From NCBI GenBank assembly GCA_937931785.1, contig CALHAX010000007.1, forward strand, positions 1-64,000: a stretch of 64,000 nt of DNA, written 5' to 3'. The notes beneath the pieces are model-generated. The model had not been told where the DNA came from, ran no database searches, and worked only from the letters and a program-made list of their open reading frames with translations. Of this stretch, positions 40,069-50,877 are shown one piece after another (within the stretch, counting starts at the first letter, position 1; the number at the start of each line of letters is the position of its first letter). The position numbers were made by a program, and so were the translations under genes. The DNA comes from an uncultured Hyphomicrobiaceae bacterium (lineage in GTDB: Bacteria; Pseudomonadota; Alphaproteobacteria; Rhizobiales; CALHAX01).

Positions 40069-40125
40069 ACATCGTTGCGGTTGCGATCTCCACACGACTG
40101 TCAGCAAGACACGGATCGTCACATC

Positions 40126-41742
40126 ATGAACTTGAGTCTCGAAAACATCGTTGGATTTTTTGGTACCTTGCTCGTGGCTTTCGCGGGCGTTGTGTTTGTA
40201 ACATCCGGCGACAGCAACGGCATCGTAACGCACGGCTGGATGATGCTGCTTGTTGCAGGGTTCGGCGTCAAATTCCTCCTCGAAAGCATCCAGGATGGCG
40301 AACCGGAAGCCGTGCTCGAATATGATGACCGCATCGTTCGACTGGGCATTCTGTTTTGTTTTGCATGGGGTATCGTCGGTTTCTTTGTCGGAGACTGGCT
40401 CGCATGGCAGCTGGCCTACCCAGCCCTGAACGGCGACATGCCATGGACGAATTTTGGTCGCTTACGCCCCGTACATACGACAGCTGTCATATTCGGCTTC
40501 GGTGGCAACGCACTCATCGCAACATCGTTTTATGTCGTCCAGAGGACCTGCAGGGCGCGCCTGGTTGGGCACACACTGCCATGGCTTGTTTTTGGCGGAT
40601 ACAATCTCTTCGTTCTTCTTGCAGCCACGGGGTATCCGCTTGGCATTACGCAAAGCCGCGAATACGCAGAGCCTGAATGGTATGCAGACCTGCTCCTGAC
40701 ACTTGTCTGGGTCGGATATTTCGTCACATTCATGCGCACACTTGCTCGCCGGGCGGAGCCGCATATCTATGTGGCAAACTGGTACTATCTGTCCTTCATC
40801 GTGGTCATTGCGATGCTGCACATCGTGAACAACCTGGCGATCCCGCTCTCTTGGAGCGGTGACAAGAGTTACGCGCTATTCGCCGGTGTTCAGGATGCCA
40901 TGACGCAATGGTGGTATGGACACAACGCCGTTGGCTTTTTCCTCACCACCGGTTTTCTCGGCATGCTCTATTATTTTCTTCCCAAGGCAATCAATCGCCC
41001 GATTTACTCATACCGCATGTCGATCGTGAGTTTCTGGGGGATCACGTTTCTCTACCTCTGGGCCGGCTCGCATCACCTTCACTATACGGCCTTGCCTGAC
41101 TGGGTACAGATGCTGGGCATGACCATGTCGATCATCCTGCTTGTGCCAAGCTGGGCGTCTGTCTTCAATGGCATCCTGACCTTGAATGGCGCGTGGGACA
41201 AGGTGCGCACGGACCCGGCCGTGCGGTTCATGATGGTCGCGATCCTGTTCTATGGGCTGTCGACATTCGAAGGCTCTTTCATGGCCATCCGTCCAGTCAA
41301 CGCGCTCAGTCACTACACGGACTGGACAGTGGGGCACGTTCACGCAGGTGCGCTGGGCTGGATCGCCTTCATCACTTTTGGTGCCATGTACAAACTGGTG
41401 CCGTGGGTGTGGAACCGCGAGGGCATTTATTCTCTCAGGCTTGAGGCGTGGCATTTCTGGCTCGCACTGAGTGGCGCGTTGATCTATGTCGGCGCCATGT
41501 GGAACAGCGGAATTACGCAGTCGCTCATGTGGCAAACCTACGATGGTGACGGAAATTTCCTCTATTCCTTCATGGACACGGTGGATGCCATGCATGGCTA
41601 TTATGTTGCGCGTGCCATTGGTGGTTTGCTCTACTTCATCGGAGCCTGCATCGGTGCTTACAATATCTACATGACTGTGAGCGGTCCGGCGATGCAAACG
41701 GCCTCTGTCGATCCTGCTCCACTTGCGGTTCCGGGTGAATAG
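40126..41742 (+). CDS. ccoN: cbb3-type cytochrome c oxidase subunit I
   Basis: The 538-residue polytopic protein is the catalytic haem-copper subunit. Visible landmarks are the low-spin haem His in [35 protein letters not shown], the two-His [11 protein letters not shown] site and [11 protein letters not shown]. It reduces O2 to water with high affinity in the inner membrane. The start at 40126 is preferred on length; an upstream start at 40075 is open. It begins a tight operon ccoN-O-Q-P-(small ORF)-I-S. Confidence 0.95.
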
Positions 41743-41745
41743 ATC

Positions 41746-42477
41746 ATGCTGGAAAAACATCAAAAACTTGAACGTAATTCACTCGCTTTCACAGTCATGA
41801 TTCTGATTGTTGCTTCAATCGGTGGTCTTGTTGAAATCGCACCACTCTTCACGATCGAAAACACAGTTGAGAAAGTGGAGGGCATGCGGCCGTACACGCC
41901 GCTCGAACAGGTTGGTCGCGATATTTACATCCGCGAAGGCTGTTACGCCTGCCACAGCCAGATGATCCGCACCTTGCGATCCGACGTGGAACGGTATGGT
42001 CATTTCAGCCTGGCTGCCGAAAGCATGTACGATCATCCATTCCAGTGGGGGTCGAAACGGACAGGCCCGGATCTCGCGCGGATTGGGGGCAAATACTCGG
42101 ATGCCTGGCATGTGGCCCATCTGAAGGCACCGCGTGAGGTTGTCGAAGGGTCTGTTATGCCGGGTTACGCATTTCTTGCAGAGACGACTGTCGATACACA
42201 AAAACTACCATATGTCCTGCGTGCACTGTCTCGTGTCGGCGTGCCTTATACAGAAACGCAGATCAAGGATGCGGCTCGTGATCTTGCCCGTCAGGCCGAT
42301 GCCGAGGCAGAAGACGAGGACGTGCTGACGGAACGTTATGGAGACAAGGTGAATATCAGGGATTTTGACGGCGATCCGAAGCGTGTGACCGAGATGGACG
42401 CACTCGTGGCCTATTTGCAGGTTCTCGGCACGCTGGTGGACACAAAGACCTTGAAATCGGGAGATCTTGTGCGATGA
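41746..42477 (+). CDS. ccoO: cbb3 oxidase subunit II, monohaem cytochrome c
   Basis: The 243-residue protein has one N-terminal membrane anchor (~15-34) and a single haem c motif CYACH (residues 66-70), with [32 protein letters not shown] following, as in CcoO/FixO. It accepts electrons from CcoP and passes them to CcoN. Start is 3 bp after ccoN; stop overlaps the ccoQ start in an ATGA. Confidence 0.95.
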
Positions 42478-42638
42478 CCCACGACGCTGTCCTCATATTT
42501 TCCAAAACCTGGGGCGCACTGTACCTGCTTGTCTTCTTCCTGGCGGCCGTCGTGTGGACCTATTGGCCGTCAAGGCGAAAACAATACGAAGACGCATCCC
42601 GTCGACCACTGGACAAGGACGACAAACCATGGAGGTAG
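42474..42638 (+). CDS. ccoQ: cbb3 oxidase small subunit
   Basis: A 54-residue ORF overlaps the ccoO stop (ATGA) and ends inside the start of ccoP. It encodes one transmembrane helix (~12-30: [19 protein letters not shown]) followed by a polar tail, the size and pattern of CcoQ/FixQ. CcoQ stabilises the assembled oxidase. Confidence 0.85.
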
Positions 42639-43498
42639 AATACGATCCCGTAACCGGCCGCCACACAACCGGGCACGAATGGAACGGCATCAAGGAACTC
42701 GACACTCCCATTCCTGCCATCGTGAAATGGTGTTATGGACTAACGATACTCTTTTCGATCATATGGTGGATTTTATATCCATCATGGCCATACGTTTCGG
42801 ACTTCATGCGCGGAATTGCTGGTTATTCCTCTCGACACGTCGTCACCACACAATTGCAGGATGCGACTGCTCAACGCGCAGTATTCGACAGTGATCTGCT
42901 GAAGGGCAGCCTGGTCACCCTGGCGGCGGACCCCGACGCGCGCAAGAAATATGAAGCCAGCGCGAAGATCCTTTATCGCGATAACTGCGCCGCCTGCCAT
43001 GGTCGCGATTTGAGGGGGCAGAACGGCTTTCCGAATTTGACGGATCCACACTGGTTGTGGTCGGGAGACGTTGAAGATATTGCAACAACATTACGTGTCG
43101 GCATCAACTCAGGGCACGACGACGAACGTAGTGCGGAAATGCCAGCCTTTGGTCGCGATGACGTTATCGAGAAGGCCGACATTGATGCCGTGATTGCGTA
43201 TGTCCTGTTTATTTCAGGTCAGAACCATGATGCAACACTGAGAACTAAAGGTGAGGCAGTGTTTGCGGAGAACTGCGCAAGCTGCCACGGAGAAAAAGGT
43301 GTTGGAGGCCTTGGTGCCGGTGCGCCAAGCCTTGTCGACCAGGCCTGGATCTACGGCAAATCGCGCGCCATGATACATCAGGCCATCTGGCAAGGACGCA
43401 AAGGTGTCATGCCCGGCTGGACAGGGCGATTAACCGAAACCGAAATCCGAAAACTGGCGCTCTATGTTACCTGGCAAAACGATGCAGGAAACAAGTGA
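42629..43498 (+). CDS. ccoP: cbb3 oxidase subunit III, dihaem cytochrome c
   Basis: The 289-residue protein has the CcoP N-terminus (TGHEWNGIKELDTPIPAI), one membrane helix (~33-53) and two haem c motifs, CAACH at 120-124 and CASCH at 216-220. It overlaps ccoQ by 10 bases and has AAGGA 11 bp upstream. It passes electrons from soluble cytochromes to CcoO. Both haem sites are intact. Confidence 0.95.
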   Translation: MEVEYDPVTGRHTTGHEWNGIKELDTPIPAIVKWCYGLTILFSIIWWILYPSWPYVSDFMRGIAGYSSRHVVTTQLQDATAQRAVFDSDLLKGSLVTLAADPDARKKYEASAKILYRDNCAACHGRDLRGQNGFPNLTDPHWLWSGDVEDIATTLRVGINSGHDDERSAEMPAFGRDDVIEKADIDAVIAYVLFISGQNHDATLRTKGEAVFAENCASCHGEKGVGGLGAGAPSLVDQAWIYGKSRAMIHQAIWQGRKGVMPGWTGRLTETEIRKLALYVTWQNDAGNK

Positions 43499-43649
43499 GC
43501 GCGAGCGACGGTTTCGCAACAGGATGCTGACATTCCTTGTCGTGCTGCTGTTTGCCTACCTGTCATTCAAGGCCTGGCATATTTCGTTGGCTCTGGAGGT
43601 GTGGCCGGCACAGCACCTCGATGGTGACACAACGGGAGCGGCAAAATGA
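43482..43649 (+). CDS. Small single-pass membrane protein in the cco operon
   Basis: A 55-residue ORF overlaps the end of ccoP by 17 bases and overlaps the ccoI start. It has a basic N-terminus and one transmembrane helix (~15-34). Normally ccoG and ccoH occupy this place; this ORF is far too short for either, though it could be the membrane helix remnant of a CcoH/FixH-like protein. A start at 43524 is possible. Confidence 0.5.
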   Translation: MQETSERERRFRNRMLTFLVVLLFAYLSFKAWHISLALEVWPAQHLDGDTTGAAK

Positions 43650-45781
43650 CGACGCGGGATGCCACCGTCCTTGACGCTTTTGTCCGCACGAACCCCGATG
43701 GCTCCGCCAGTCTGAATTGCACCGTCGACGGCATGCGATGCGGCGCCTGCGCACTTTCTATCGAGCACGCCATCTCGAACATCAACGGCGTCCTCCAGGC
43801 ACGGGTGAATGCGACCACTCACCGCCTCCGGCTGGTATGGAATCCCGAAACTGTTCACCCTAAACGCTTGCTAGATGCCGTCACGGAACTCGGGTTCGAA
43901 GCGCACCCCTTTGCCATGGAGGGAAAACAAACCACAGAACAGAACCTTCTCGTACCGCTTGCCGTCGCAGGGTTTGGTACCATGAACATCATGGCCATCT
44001 CGTTTGCCGTGTGGAGCGGCCTTGTCACTGACATGGGTGTCGGAACGCGTACATTTCTTCATGCGTTATCGGCGGTTATTGCCCTGCCTGTGACCCTGTA
44101 CGCCGGGGCAGTGTTCTACGTCCCCGCTGCACGCGCACTACGTGCCGGTCGCATGACCATGGATGTAGCCATTTCATTTGCGGTTCTGACCACGCTCGCA
44201 GCGAGTCTGTACGAAACCATTCGGCATGGCGCACACATCTATTTCGATGCTGCCGTTTCACTTGTTTTCTTCCTTCTCATTGGACGCGTGCTCGATCAGG
44301 CATTACGGCGGCGGGCCTCCAACGCATCAGAGAACCTGCGAGCGCTCGGGCAAACCTCCGCGATACGACTAACCGACGATGGCAAAAGCGAACACGTGAC
44401 GGTCGATGCTCTGGTGTCAGGAGAGACGATCCTGACACCTCCGGGAACACGCATCGCTGCCGACGGAGTATTGAGATCAGAGTCTACACTTGTCGACGAG
44501 AGCTTTCTGACCGGCGAAACACTTCCACGCCTCGTTGAAACCGGTGCGCGTGTCACTGCGGGAAGTCTTGTTGTCGACATCGCTGCGCGGATCGAGGTGA
44601 CGACTGCCGGTACTGCAACACGCCTGCAGGACATCGCAGACATGTTGAGCGCTGCTGAAGCGGCCAAAGGCGAGGATCAGCGTCTTGCTGATCGCTTTAC
44701 ACGTGCCTATGGCCCGTTTGTCATCGGCGCCGCCTTGGCCGGCTTCATGTTCTGGTACACAATCGCGGGAGTATCCCTATCCGAAGCGATCATGATTGCT
44801 GTTGCCGTCATGATTGTCACATGCCCATGTGCGGCTGGTCTTGCCACACCAGCTGTTCTCAGTCGTGCCATCAACATGCTGATGGCACGCGGCGTAATCG
44901 TGAAAAACGGCGATGCACTGGAGCGATTGGGCGCGATTTCTATCGCGGCTATCGACAAGACAGGAACACTTTCAAACGCACGATTGAGCCCGGATTCCCG
45001 GATTGAACCAACCGTTCTGAGAGCCGCATCCGAACTCGCAGCGAACAGCACACATCCCCTCGCAAAAGCCCTGGTTCATGCCTATCCGGCAGGTGTGCGA
45101 CCGGATGTCAAAGAGCAGGTTGGGCGTGGTCTTGCTGCATCTGATGAAAGTCGCCTCGGGTCGGCAAAGTTCGTCGGTGTGGAAACTGACGATACCCCGT
45201 CAGGCCCACATTTGTGGTACCGCTCAGCTGAAGGTGTGGCGACGCAGATCACCTTCCGCGACGAGGCGCACCCGGATGCGCATCAAGTTGTTGCCGGTCT
45301 CGTCGCGCGGCAGATCAAGCCCGTTCTGATCTCAGGTGATCATCCCGAAGTTGTTGAAGGTTTTGCCCGAGATCTTGGAATTCCGGATTGGTTCGGTGCT
45401 TTGTCTCCCGAGGCCAAGATCTCATTCGTCAAATCCTGCCCGCACAAGACACTGATGGTTGGTGACGGACTGAACGATGCACCGGCGCTCGGCGCTGCAC
45501 ACGCCTCCGTATCTCCTGGATCATCGACGGATGTGGCACAGAATGCGGCAGATATTCTCATGACGGGCCGCTCCCTGCTTCCACTTCTTGGTGCGATCGA
45601 CATCGCGCGGCAATCAAGACAATTGATTAAACAGAACTTATATTTTGCTGCATTCTACAATGTGGTGACAATACCGGTTGCACTTGCTGGTGGTCTGACC
45701 CCCCTGGTTGCCGCTCTTCTCATGTCGTCCTCTTCGATACTGGTCATGCTCAATGCACGCAGGTTGGGAACTTCGTCATGA
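43646..45781 (+). CDS. ccoI: cbb3-type copper-exporting P1B ATPase
   Basis: The 711-residue P-type ATPase has an N-terminal metal domain with MRCGAC (Cys32, Cys35), eight predicted membrane helices, the ion-binding CPC in VTCPCAAGLATP, the phosphorylation site DKTGT and the hinge GDGLNDAPAL. CcoI delivers copper for the haem-copper centre of cbb3 oxidase. GGAG lies 7 bp upstream; the start overlaps the preceding small ORF and the stop overlaps ccoS. Confidence 0.93.
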   Translation: MTTRDATVLDAFVRTNPDGSASLNCTVDGMRCGACALSIEHAISNINGVLQARVNATTHRLRLVWNPETVHPKRLLDAVTELGFEAHPFAMEGKQTTEQNLLVPLAVAGFGTMNIMAISFAVWSGLVTDMGVGTRTFLHALSAVIALPVTLYAGAVFYVPAARALRAGRMTMDVAISFAVLTTLAASLYETIRHGAHIYFDAAVSLVFFLLIGRVLDQALRRRASNASENLRALGQTSAIRLTDDGKSEHVTVDALVSGETILTPPGTRIAADGVLRSESTLVDESFLTGETLPRLVETGARVTAGSLVVDIAARIEVTTAGTATRLQDIADMLSAAEAAKGEDQRLADRFTRAYGPFVIGAALAGFMFWYTIAGVSLSEAIMIAVAVMIVTCPCAAGLATPAVLSRAINMLMARGVIVKNGDALERLGAISIAAIDKTGTLSNARLSPDSRIEPTVLRAASELAANSTHPLAKALVHAYPAGVRPDVKEQVGRGLAASDESRLGSAKFVGVETDDTPSGPHLWYRSAEGVATQITFRDEAHPDAHQVVAGLVARQIKPVLISGDHPEVVEGFARDLGIPDWFGALSPEAKISFVKSCPHKTLMVGDGLNDAPALGAAHASVSPGSSTDVAQNAADILMTGRSLLPLLGAIDIARQSRQLIKQNLYFAAFYNVVTIPVALAGGLTPLVAALLMSSSSILVMLNARRLGTSS

Positions 45782-45984
45782 CAGCAATCCTGTACCTCTT
45801 GCCAATTTCGCTCGTGTTAGGAGGACTGGCGCTTATCGCGTTCATCTGGAGTGTCAGAACGCATCAGTATGATGATCTGGAGCGGGAAAAATACCGCGTT
45901 CTGAATGATGCACCACCACTGAACAGCAACCGAACGTGGACTACGGATGGTGCATCTGATCGCGATGGAGTGGAAGAGGAATGA
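45778..45984 (+). CDS. ccoS: cbb3 oxidase maturation protein
   Basis: The 68-residue protein has a single N-terminal membrane helix and the CcoS pattern (GLALIAFIWSVRTHQYDDLEREKYRVLND). CcoS is needed for cofactor insertion into CcoN. It overlaps ccoI by four bases (ATGA) and the next gene likewise. Confidence 0.9.
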   Translation: MTAILYLLPISLVLGGLALIAFIWSVRTHQYDDLEREKYRVLNDAPPLNSNRTWTTDGASDRDGVEEE

Positions 45985-46217
45985 CCACAAACGACAGCAG
46001 GATATATCTGTCGCAATTTGGCATCAGAACGCCGGTTGGCCCTTCTGATTTCGAAGAACGCGCTCGCCTTGAAGACCTGGTTCGCAAGGAATTCGAGCGG
46101 TTGCACCCTGACGATACGTTTGAAGATCTGAAACGGCGGGCTGCATTTTCGACGGAAGATAAATATCTGTTGCGAGACTGGATGGAAATTGCATCGCGCA
46201 TTGCGCATCAATCGTGA
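45981..46217 (+). CDS. Hypothetical protein at the end of the cco operon
   Basis: The 78-residue soluble, charged protein overlaps ccoS by four bases with GAGGA just upstream, so it is translated as part of the oxidase operon. Its body is helical (DFEERARLEDLVRKEFERLHP). I do not recognise a family; a link to oxidase assembly is only inferred from position. Confidence 0.6.
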   Translation: MTTNDSRIYLSQFGIRTPVGPSDFEERARLEDLVRKEFERLHPDDTFEDLKRRAAFSTEDKYLLRDWMEIASRIAHQS

Positions 46218-46330
46218 CACACCGACCGCTTGGGAAACGCAGCGAGGTGAAGGTCGTTATCCATGCCTGCACAGCGTCGAAACGGAAGCGCCGAATATGG
46301 ATCGATTTACGGATGATGCTATAGTAAAAT

Positions 46331-46396
46331 AAAAAAAACCGACCTCATCCCGAAGCGCGTCAGTGGGGGGGACGCTTCAACAAGGACAAGGTCGGT
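46331..46396 (-). terminator. Rho-independent terminator of the candidate small RNA
   Basis: The 8-bp stem ACCGACCT/AGGTCGGT with an inner hairpin is followed on the minus strand by TTTTTTTT (46331-46338). No minus-strand protein gene precedes it, so its transcript is probably non-coding. Confidence 0.75.
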
Positions 46397-46463
46397 CAAA
46401 CGGAACCAACGTGTTCCAACGCATCTCGGTGCAACAAGGGGGAGGGGGGAATGCGCACCGATC
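46331..46463 (-). ncRNA. Candidate trans-acting small RNA with C-rich (anti-Shine-Dalgarno) loops
   Basis: Read on the minus strand the region folds in three consecutive stems. Stem 1 pairs TCGGTGC with GCACCGA (46455-46461 and 46426-46432) and exposes CCCCCCTCCCCC in its loop. Stem 2 pairs GGAAC with GTTCC (46413-46417, 46402-46406). Stem 3 pairs ACCGACCT with AGGTCGGT (46389-46396, 46338-46345), encloses an inner GAAGCG/CGCTTC hairpin with a second C6-7 loop, and ends in eight T residues. A TATGAT -10-like box sits just upstream. Exposed C-rich loops plus a strong terminator are the design of alphaproteobacterial anti-SD sRNAs. Confidence 0.65.
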
Positions 46464-46726
46464 ATATGTATTCAGTCAAACTCCTTCCACAATCGATCCA
46501 AAAAAGAGTTCTCTGCCTTGCAACATCTCGCTATCCATACTCTAGGGAGGGAAAGTATTGGACTTGCCTCAATGCCGCTCTGGCACAATCATATTGCAAC
46601 TACAAACATCAAAGGTATTCACTATCCGTGCGATTTGATTCCTGAAACCTGCTTGATGTTCCAATGTTCATGTAATCTTAGAAAATGAGTGAAGTGCAGT
46701 CTCGGGAGAGGTCCGCTCGTATCAGA

Positions 46727-46744
46727 GTTTCCACGGGTGGAAAC
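46727..46744. repeat. 18-bp perfect hairpin/palindrome
   Basis: GTTTCCAC and GTGGAAAC are exact complements separated by GG. It stands alone in non-coding DNA; it may be an operator or RNA hairpin. Confidence 0.4.
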
Positions 46745-47343
46745 ACGCACTGCGATCGCCTCTTCGTTCTCAGAGATAACTTTTGATTGATCAGTTTGCC
46801 AGTTGCTGACTAGCTTATTGGATGAGATTAATTGCACCTTACTTGGCATAGGAACGTAGGATGTTGAAGGACACATTGTACGTTTGACTTGCCTCATCAG
46901 GCCGTAGACTCATAAACCTCACGAGGTTGCATGGTCCAAAGCGTCCAAAGACCAAGGAAACAGCGATGCAGTTGAGCAAATCTCAAGAAATCGGTGGCGA
47001 CGCCGGAATTTGGGATGATTTGGAGCGTCCTGCGGATCGGCGTGCCGTCCACCGGCAAAGGCGTCGGAAAGTCTCGTCGCTGCCCCGCATCGCCTGTGTG
47101 TCTCCTTGCTGACGGCGTTCGCACGCCGACGCAAACCGCGCAGGTTTATGAGTTTGCGGCCCAGGGTGTGCTTGATCCCAATGGAACCGCGACGCGCCAC
47201 CCCAGCTGCTCCATTGGGTTCCGAGTGTTTCCCTTTAAATCCACACACTCCGGGTGAAATTGAAATTTGCCAACGTAGCGCCTCAGGATCCAACCCCTTG
47301 GTACTGAGAAATACGATACAAGACGGCCTAAAGAGAGGTACAA

Positions 47344-48132
47344 ATGCCCGAAGAGACTCATGACAATGGCTCTGCGAGTTCAGAGCAGGAGCTGCACGAG
47401 CAGCTGGCAGCTGCGGACGAACACAAGATCAGCATATCCTCCGAAGAACTCTCCCAAGGTTTGGGAGATCGAATCAAATCAATCGACGCAAGCTTTCATC
47501 AACAGCACCTCCAAGGCCTTGCAATTTCTCTGGGTAACCTCTGGCTCAGTTTCGCAATGATGGCGGGTGCTGCTGGTGTTCTTTCATTGGCGATGGCTAA
47601 TCCGATTGTGGGCGTCGTCATTGGGGCTATTCTAGGTACAGTGCTCTACGCAACCGTTTCTTATGTGCTCGGTCTAAGGATTGATCTAGCGCTTGAGCGT
47701 AAAGTCATGGGAATTCGTCGCGCTGCAGCTCTCGGCGCCGAACGTGTCAAAATAGATGACCCCCAATTGGTGCGCAGCGCTCTCGGCGAAGTTTTATGCG
47801 AATGGATGCACGGAGCAATTCTTTTGCGTCGTTTGAAGGAAACCAGCTTTTGGTACCGTTGGATTGTGGCCGCACAAATGATCATCTCCCTCGCAGCAAT
47901 CGCTGCATTCGCCAGTCTTTCGACATTTTCTGTAGACACCACCTCAGTGATCGTCGGGGTGGCAGTGTTGCTGACAATTGCGCATGGGTGGCGAGAAATT
48001 CAAGCGAGTCACTTGAGAGGTCATACCTGCGCTATCAGTGATGGACTGGATCCAACAGAAGCTCTCACCGACCGCTTGGTGAGTCTCCTTGAGGAGGTAC
48101 GTGCACTTCGGCGGCAACGACACATCGACTGA
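47344..48132 (+). CDS. Hypothetical multi-pass membrane protein
   Basis: The 262-residue protein has a hydrophilic N-terminus (~1-50, Glu/Ser/His-rich), a pair of membrane helices (~61-112), a basic cytoplasmic segment, and a second pair (~170-215), then a helical C-terminus. GAGAGG lies 6 bp upstream of the ATG. I do not recognise a family. It stands alone between the gene-poor region and repeat copy B, which starts 24 bp after its stop. The topology (helical pairs with flanking charged regions) resembles small SLATT-like or stress membrane proteins, but that is only a resemblance. Confidence 0.65.
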   Translation: MPEETHDNGSASSEQELHEQLAAADEHKISISSEELSQGLGDRIKSIDASFHQQHLQGLAISLGNLWLSFAMMAGAAGVLSLAMANPIVGVVIGAILGTVLYATVSYVLGLRIDLALERKVMGIRRAAALGAERVKIDDPQLVRSALGEVLCEWMHGAILLRRLKETSFWYRWIVAAQMIISLAAIAAFASLSTFSVDTTSVIVGVAVLLTIAHGWREIQASHLRGHTCAISDGLDPTEALTDRLVSLLEEVRALRRQRHID

Positions 48133-48470
48133 AACTTATTGCAATCTATTGCTTGCTATAGCGCGTCTGATTCAAATGGACTCATGACGCGACGCCCCAG
48201 GTAGCTCCACAGACATCCCGGTGTCTCCATTTAAGTCGGACACACCCTACACGTTCAGGTCAGACACGGTAAAGTGGTGCGGCTGGTTGCGGTTTGGAAC
48301 AAAAAGATTGAACTCAGATCGGGCAACACCGCGTTACCAATAGTTTATTGTCCACAATGCACGCCGCCTTGCCGCAAGCCGCTTAACGTCTTTGCGCGCG
48401 TCTGATCCAAATGAAATTACGATGCACTAATTCAAGCTGTGCCATTTGGCACTACTGGCATCACGGTATC
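48133..48470. other. Repeat-bearing intergenic region
   Basis: The 338-bp gap between the membrane protein gene and nirV contains repeat copy B (48157-48250) and most of the divergent copy C (48396-48492). No ORF is supported. Confidence 0.75.
48157..48250. repeat. Two-hairpin intergenic repeat, copy B
   Basis: A 94-bp unit matching copy A at 38339-38431 in the same orientation, both beginning TATAGCGCGTCTGA and ending GGACACACC(C)TAC. Differences cluster in loops and the spacer between the two hairpins, as expected if the stems are kept. It begins 24 bp after the stop of the membrane protein gene. Confidence 0.85.
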
Positions 48471-49212: not shown

Positions 49213-50730
49213 CTACTTGATTGGACCAATGTACACTTGCTTCATGAGATCGTCGTCCCATTTACCTTCCACAACAACATGAGCCGCTGCTCCGAGTTCA
49301 ACGGCCTCAATCAAGTTGTGATTGAGGTAGGCGTAGACCCCGGGTTGTCGGAATGTGTACAACGCCGCACCTGCGGAACCACCGCGAACGAACCATGTTT
49401 CCTGGTCTCTCAATGGAGGGGACGAAAATGAACCGGTTTCCCAAACAAAATCACCATGCCCACCAATCAGATGGGGCCGCGTGTCCCGGTTTCCCTGCAC
49501 GTGCAGGAATAGTACAGTTTCGCCAACCTTGGCTTTCATCGCACCCTTGCCCGTAAGGGCACCAACGCGTCCGTTAAACACCACGTGCGTCGGCAACAGC
49601 GTTCTCATGGATTGTATCCAGTCGGCAAGATCCTCACCGGCCGCGCTGTACGTCTTGAAATTACCATCCGCATCGCGTGGCACGTAGAAATCGTTTTCGC
49701 CGACGAAATACAATCGATCATAGGTGAGCGACTTGCCTTTATCGTCTTTCAAGCCATCACGTGGAAGCACCATGATCGCCCCGGTCATTCCGTGAGTCAC
49801 GTGGTATGGCGTCATCGAGCCCTCAGGCGCACAATGGTAGAGAAAAACACCGGTTTTCGTGGCCTTGAAACGAAGCGTGGTCTCTTCTCCGGGTGAAATT
49901 GTGGTGATGCCCGCGCCGCCTAACGCGCCGGTTGCGGCATGCAGGTCGATATTGTGTTCCATCAAATTGGTTGACGGGTTCTTGAGCGTCAGTTCGACGT
50001 AATCCCCTTCGTGCGCAATGATGAGAGGGGCGGGAATGGAACCGTTGAACGTGAGTGCAACAATTTCAGTGCCGTCGCCATCAAGCACCCATTTTTTTTC
50101 TTCAACAACGAGTTCGACCTCTATGACTCGCGCCTTACCCTTGGCCACCTGTTCGTGTTTGGGAGCAAACGGTGGCAGCACGAGTTCCTGGCGTACGCGT
50201 TCCAGCCCTTCGAGGGAGTCGCTCGCTATCGTGCCAGAGGCCATGCCCATACCGGCCGGAACATCGCCGTGCGTCAACTTCTCGGCACCTGCCGCAGCAG
50301 CTTTCTTGGGCCCGAGTGTTTCGAGGTAGGCTATGACATCGCGACGTTTCTTTTCATCACGCAGGCGAAACGACATCTTTGCCCTTGCACTGTCATCACC
50401 CAGGTAGCCTTGCACAAACTTTGTCGGATCCGCGAGCCAGTTAAACATCTGCTCCTTCGACCAGACCAATCCTTTTCCATTGGCGGCCTTGAGCCCCGAG
50501 CCGTATTTATATCCATCATATGATCCAGCCAGGCGCCCAACAACACCATTCAAGACAGGGCCAACCGCATTTTTTGCGTTGTCACCAACCTGATGGCAGG
50601 CGCGGCAGGAACGGAAAACCTTCTTCCCGGCTTTCGCATTGCCTTCTTGCGCAATCGCAACGGTGTTGAAACTGCCCGCGAGCAGTGTGGTTCCAACAAC
50701 CCCGATAAGAATATTCGCAAATTTGAACAC
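49213..50730 (-). CDS. nirK: Copper nitrite reductase with N-terminal cytochrome c domain
   Basis: The 505-residue periplasmic protein has a signal peptide (~1-28), a haem c domain with CRACH at 42-46 (~30-135), then a two-cupredoxin NirK core. Copper ligands are all visible: HNIDLH (type 1 and type 2 His), [10 protein letters not shown] (type 2 His, type 1 Cys), PYHVTHGM (type 1 His and Met) and LNHNLIE (type 2 His). Catalytic Asp (NIDLH) and His (LIGGHGD) are kept. It reduces nitrite to NO. The GTG start at 50730 is decided by AAGGAG 6 bp upstream; longer frames lose the signal peptide. nirV follows. Confidence 0.93.
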
Positions 50731-50877
50731 GGATAGCTCCTTCAGATGAATTCGGTGAACCGGATGGCTGCCACGGAGATGAGCAAGGTGGAGCAGCATG
50801 AAATCAAGACGTTCAGATACCGCTGCGCACTTCAACAACCGTTAAACTGCAAATGTTCCAATGTGCCGGTATTCGAA

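Follow-up and report, generated by a model that had tools for sequence, protein, structure and literature searches.

Does the gene-poor stretch between a cbb3 oxidase operon and a nitrite reductase gene on this contig hold a small RNA gene and, if so, of which kind? Within the window (the whole stretch of DNA that was analysed, 64,000 nucleotides), the initial annotation had described a candidate small RNA at 46331-46463 that exposes C-rich loops and ends in a strong terminator. Its strand (minus), sequence and coordinates are correct, and the description is supported by the sequence and by the predicted fold.

Genomic surroundings of the candidate RNA

The plus-strand cbb3 oxidase operon lies on one side of the candidate RNA, and genes for nitrite reduction lie on the other:

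40075-41742, plus: COX1-type subunit of the cbb3 oxidase operon
41746-42477, plus: 243-aa protein with a CXXCH haem motif, ccoO by position
42467-43498, plus: FixP
43646-45781, plus: ccoI, copper ATPase
45778-45984, plus: ccoS
45981-46217, plus: orf78, a 78-aa ORF overlapping the end of ccoS, family unassigned
46331-46463, minus: candidate small RNA, ~125-133 nt with an approximate 5′ end (fold z −4.83, open C blocks, no coding signal)
47344-48132, plus: 262-aa ORF of no known family, good coding score
48471-49199, minus: nirV-like, FGE-sulfatase-domain protein
49213-50838, minus: nirK, fused cytochrome c/copper nitrite reductase, cytochrome c domain N-terminal

The region had been called gene-poor, and the codon scores agree, since the ORFs within 46218-47343 fall in the range of out-of-frame controls. 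The four ORFs tested there (46319-46465, 46451-46645, 46622-46897 and 46919-47293) matched no Pfam family, and three of them no NCBIfam family either. The candidate RNA is convergent with orf78 and lies 114 bp past the end of that ORF. For the orf78 product no Pfam family match was found; five distant genomes of the order encode homologs (43-68% identity), and this small protein may have a part in nitrogen-oxide or low-oxygen respiration. No plasmid record spans 80% of nirK, the matches being restricted to the reductase part.

Several minor features were observed around these genes. A 20-nt inverted repeat (46900-46919 and 47142-47161, 90% complementary) encloses 262 bp without clear coding signal; the unit, 46900-47161, resembles an IS remnant or a small non-autonomous mobile element, but a second copy did not turn up in the genome. 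The 262-aa ORF is flanked by direct repeats of 30 nt (GCGCGTCTGATYCAAATG...), three related copies of which lie at 47166-47195, 48161-48190 and 48396-48425. In two of the five genomes with an orf78 homolog, the homolog apparently has a regulator of the Rrf2 type (L032) or nap-like cytochrome genes (L036) in its vicinity.

Predicted fold, terminator and promoter

Read 5′ to 3′ on the minus strand, 46463-46331 runs GATCGGTGCGCATTCCCCCCTCCCCCTTGTTGCACCGAGATGCG...GACCGACCTTGTCC...CCCCCCCACTGA...GGTCGGTTTTTTTT and contains two hairpins with loops of C6-T-C5 and C7, ending in T8. Its minimum free energy is −51.2 kcal/mol, against −35.2 ± 3.3 kcal/mol for dinucleotide shuffles (z −4.83), and none of 200 such shuffles folds equally well. 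The following elements are predicted:

46461-46489, minus: weak sigma-70-like promoter guess TGGAAG-N17-TATGAT, 8/12, below scan threshold and unreliable
46426-46461, minus: 5′ hairpin, stem UCGGUGC/GCACCGA, bearing the first C-rich loop (MFE and centroid concordant)
46438-46449, minus: loop 1, CCCCCCUCCCCC, containing CCUCC, the proposed anti-Shine-Dalgarno seed (unpaired probability 1.00)
46402-46417, minus: small middle hairpin GGAAC-ACGUUG-GUUCC (MFE)
46337-46397, minus: terminator hairpin, a 15-bp stem topped by a 7-bp inner stem with a C7 loop (−31.8 kcal/mol)
46365-46371, minus: loop 2, C7, the apical loop of the terminator hairpin (unpaired probability 0.92)
46331-46338, minus: T8 tract, transcript 3′ end as predicted from the sequence, facing the 3′ end of the plus-strand cco operon

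The exposure of the C blocks depends little on where the transcript is taken to begin. Loop 1 (CCCCCCTCCCCC as DNA, 46449-46438) is unpaired with a probability of 1.00, and both C blocks stay unpaired at 0.89 or more for alternative 5′ ends from 46453 to 46565; with the latest assumed start, the 5′ stem is largely lost and the C block is still open. In a constrained control, in which the C blocks and T8 were kept in place and the remaining sequence was shuffled (n = 1000), the median unpaired probability was 0.52 and not one shuffle had both C blocks above 0.9. Furthermore, the 11-mer CCCCCTCCCCC of loop 1 occurs a single time in the 3.66-Mb genome.

The terminator had been given as an 8-bp stem with T8; the T8 is present, whereas the stem comprises 15 bp plus the 7-bp inner stem. 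At −31.8 kcal/mol with T8, it is the strongest among the 17 hairpin/T6+ sites of the 64-kb window, and it is unidirectional, since on the plus strand no T run follows the hairpin. It is also an orphan, because for ~2 kb upstream there is no minus-strand gene that shows coding signal.

Promoter evidence for the candidate RNA is weak. A generic promoter scan found none, with 1.0 expected by chance, and a search for sigma-70, RpoH, EcfG, sigma-54, FNR/FixK and NtrC sites gave none that is convincing. The only site resembling the sigma-EcfG pattern (GGAAC-N16-17-CGTT) carries 2 mismatches and lies ~180 nt upstream.

Upstream of the candidate RNA, a short minus-strand hairpin was noted at 46538-46558 (AUACUUU/AGAGUAU, loop CCCUCCCU). 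It was considered as a third C-rich hairpin and rejected, the fold of this region (~46538-46558) being at chance level (z −1.13).

Known RNA families, homologs and competing explanations

C-rich anti-Shine-Dalgarno (anti-SD) loops on tandem hairpins characterize the cuckoo/alpha-r14 RNAs of Rhizobiales, which are proposed to act at ribosome-binding sites (PMC3927594, PMC10746234). With its two hairpins, the candidate RNA falls within the tandem-hairpin definition of cuckoo, alpha-r14 and CcsR RNAs (two or more hairpins with single-stranded C-rich loops), and it resembles SmelA075, SmelA099 and NfeR1 in its C-rich anti-SD loops, its intergenic position and its order. The cuckoo/alpha-r14 RNAs, however, have three or four loops, every one with CCUCCUCCC, whereas the candidate has two, CCCCCCUCCCCC and CCCCCCC. 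The initial annotation, which saw an RNA similar in design to cuckoo and CcsR and different in motif, was thus fair on both counts: tandem hairpins, anti-SD-like loops and CCUCC in loop 1 are present, and CCUCCUCCC, sought in each hairpin loop of the candidate, is absent. In the genome as a whole, no tandem CCTCCTCC pair with 12-42 nt spacing was found.

CcsR RNAs are short, with two stem-loops and anti-SD loops, and their array ends in an intrinsic terminator (PMC3927594, PMC10253847). The candidate shares these traits with CcsR1-4 of Rhodobacter sphaeroides (RSs0680a type), but those four RNAs are processed from a single transcript that an RpoH promoter drives and that also includes a DUF1127 gene (CIN1 locus), whereas the candidate is a single copy at a locus without a DUF1127 gene and without an RpoH-like promoter. 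DUF1127 genes occur twice in the genome, both times on other contigs (C12 and C127) and with no sign of a cuckoo-like RNA alongside. The 5′ C-rich loop of GsrN in Caulobacter pairs with G-rich mRNA leaders (PMC5869019), and the candidate likewise has a C-rich loop near its 5′ end; GsrN RNAs, however, have a sigma-EcfG promoter, of which no good example was found upstream of the candidate, and, that of C. crescentus excepted, they adjoin the ecfG-nepR-phyR locus. The Rfam search that had been suggested for the cuckoo and CcsR models returned no Rfam match in the window at gathering score, and a permissive scan returned ncS16 only (E 8.8). By analogy, the candidate may work like cuckoo/alpha-r14/CcsR and GsrN RNAs, while membership in any of these families is not supported. 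The earlier proposal of a new member or a new family is accordingly not supported in its first part, given the lack of CCUCCUCCC, of an Rfam match and of a DUF1127 neighbour; a new family is not demonstrable from one instance, because a second was not found.

The homolog search covered 398 genomes from across the order, among which the source genome is the sole member of its family. Neither blastn with the candidate RNA nor a search with the whole 1.1-kb gap gave a homolog in this set; the short blastn matches (~18-37 nt) that were examined lie mainly inside unrelated coding-like sequence. A single-sequence covariance model likewise gave none, its best match reaching 21 bits and its matches having contexts without a terminator; since such a model has little power against diverged stems, and cuckoo RNAs evolve through diverged stems (PMC3927594), this absence of matches is not proof of absence. 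Searches of plasmid and phage collections gave no homolog, and searches of the source genome no paralog. A second covariance-model match in that genome was rejected as a paralog, as it sits within an NtrY-type histidine-kinase gene. Flanking genes were also used as anchors: the relatives of CcoI, from Hyphomicrobiales and of ~50% identity at best, include none with the candidate RNA nearby, and the homologs of orf78 have different neighbours, again without the candidate.

A pattern search for the 15-mer CCCCCCTCCCCCTTG of the loop in the order found it in 22 genomes, the source genome included. Of the 29 loci from relatives that were examined, most carry the C block paired with a G block, as the left arm of a dispersed palindromic repeat (form CCCCCCTCCCCCTTGTGGGGAGGGG...), and no locus among the 29 shows six consecutive T in the 200 nt downstream. 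The candidate might accordingly be no gene at all and a decayed copy of this repeat, since the 15-mer is elsewhere in the order mostly such a left arm, and the repeat form has 16 nt in common with the candidate. We consider this distinctly unlikely: the candidate lacks the right G-rich arm and its C block is unpaired, the single occurrence of CCCCCTCCCCC means that a repeat with that core is not present in the genome, and the repeat includes no strong terminator bearing a second C loop. The terminator could also be the only functional part, ending a long minus-strand transcript such as read-through from nirK-nirV (50838-48471), with the 5′ C-rich hairpin incidental or a piece of 3′ UTR, possibly cut into a small RNA. 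Such a long-range terminator would account for the missing promoter, and no intrinsic-terminator-like site is listed on the minus strand just past nirV, but the transcript would have to run ~2 kb antisense to the well-scoring plus-strand 262-aa ORF and the open 5′ C loop would go unexplained, so that we regard this origin as unlikely.

Two further explanations involve the plus strand. Convergent with the cco genes and orf78, 114 bp beyond the latter and with no convincing plus-strand terminator seen ahead of it, the candidate might be a cis-antisense RNA to the 3′ UTR of the cco operon that sets its stability, the C loops being contacts with its own complementary strand. Complementarity to the opposite strand is, however, automatic at any locus, and a cco transcript extending to 46331 would have to be assumed, which makes this role improbable. 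The plus strand itself could be functional if AAGGGGGAGGGGGGAATG were the ribosome-binding site of a 64-aa protein (46451-46645), masked by the hairpin as a translational switch; a perfect G-rich SD and an ATG do lie within the hairpin loop. The codon score of this ORF, however, is −0.127, close to that of out-of-frame controls (median −0.141; genes 0.17), the ORF matches no protein family and has no tblastn match among plasmids, and T8 forms a terminator on the minus strand only. Given such codon usage and the strand on which the T tract follows the hairpin, we judge a small protein here to be very improbable.

Proposed function and possible targets

A stand-alone, trans-acting anti-SD small RNA is the most likely reading of these sequence features, held at about even confidence. 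The gene would be transcribed on the minus strand from near 46455-46465, and the transcript would end at the intrinsic terminator (46338-46331). Two rigid hairpins would present C-rich single-stranded loops, of which loop 1 (CCCCCCUCCCCCUUGU) would act as an extended anti-SD sequence, CCUCC being lengthened to CUCCCCCUUGU, and the loops would pair with the G-rich ribosome-binding sites of several mRNAs. The most plausible effect would be to block the start of translation, as by NfeR1, whose C-rich anti-SD loops silence mRNAs at the SD (PMC10746234); the C-rich loop of GsrN can activate as well (PMC5869019). We infer transcription, base-pairing with mRNAs and repression of targets, and, from the cco and nirK neighbours, a link to low-oxygen respiration or denitrification.

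Targets were sought in one genome pattern search, for the loop complement followed by a start codon (AAGGGGGA-N3-12-ATG). The genome holds 15 such sites versus 4 for the reversed control, an excess that the G-richness of real SD sites leads one to expect and that is therefore not evidence for the candidate RNA; the matches are also unspecific, since any C-rich loop fits SD-like sites. About 5 of the 15 precede ORFs of convincing length. The best-looking site, ACAAGGGGGA, belongs to a gene for a TAXI-type TRAP-transporter permease (L063) and can form a perfect 10-bp duplex with the loop (−19.2 kcal/mol), a match that, several sites having been inspected, is statistically not notable. Other strong sites precede genes for a TerC-like membrane protein (L055) and another membrane protein (L064), these three names being read from the sequences alone. 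For one anti-SD RNA, transporter mRNAs are established targets (PMC10746234).

The element, found in one genome, is a sound sRNA candidate whose functional type is known and whose loop sequence is unusual. We would only tentatively go further and see in it a lineage-specific family of anti-SD sRNAs apart from cuckoo and GsrN, whose homopolymeric C loops (C6UC5, and C7 on the terminator) would target extended G-rich ribosome-binding sites, with a possible tie to micro-oxic respiration from its place between the cco and nirK operons. If the RNA is real, it would suggest a repeated origin of C-rich-loop anti-SD RNAs among Alphaproteobacteria, or their divergence past the CCUCCUCCC signature; motif-based family searches would then miss members, and an anti-SD RNA would have low-oxygen respiration and nitrite reduction genes as neighbours. 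The palindromic repeat met in the pattern search, CCCCCCTCCCCCTTG(T/C/A)GGGGAGGGG, often followed by GGGGGTGGGGGT, is widespread and dispersed in other genomes of the order (L068-L097) and will give false matches in any search for C-rich sRNA loops there.
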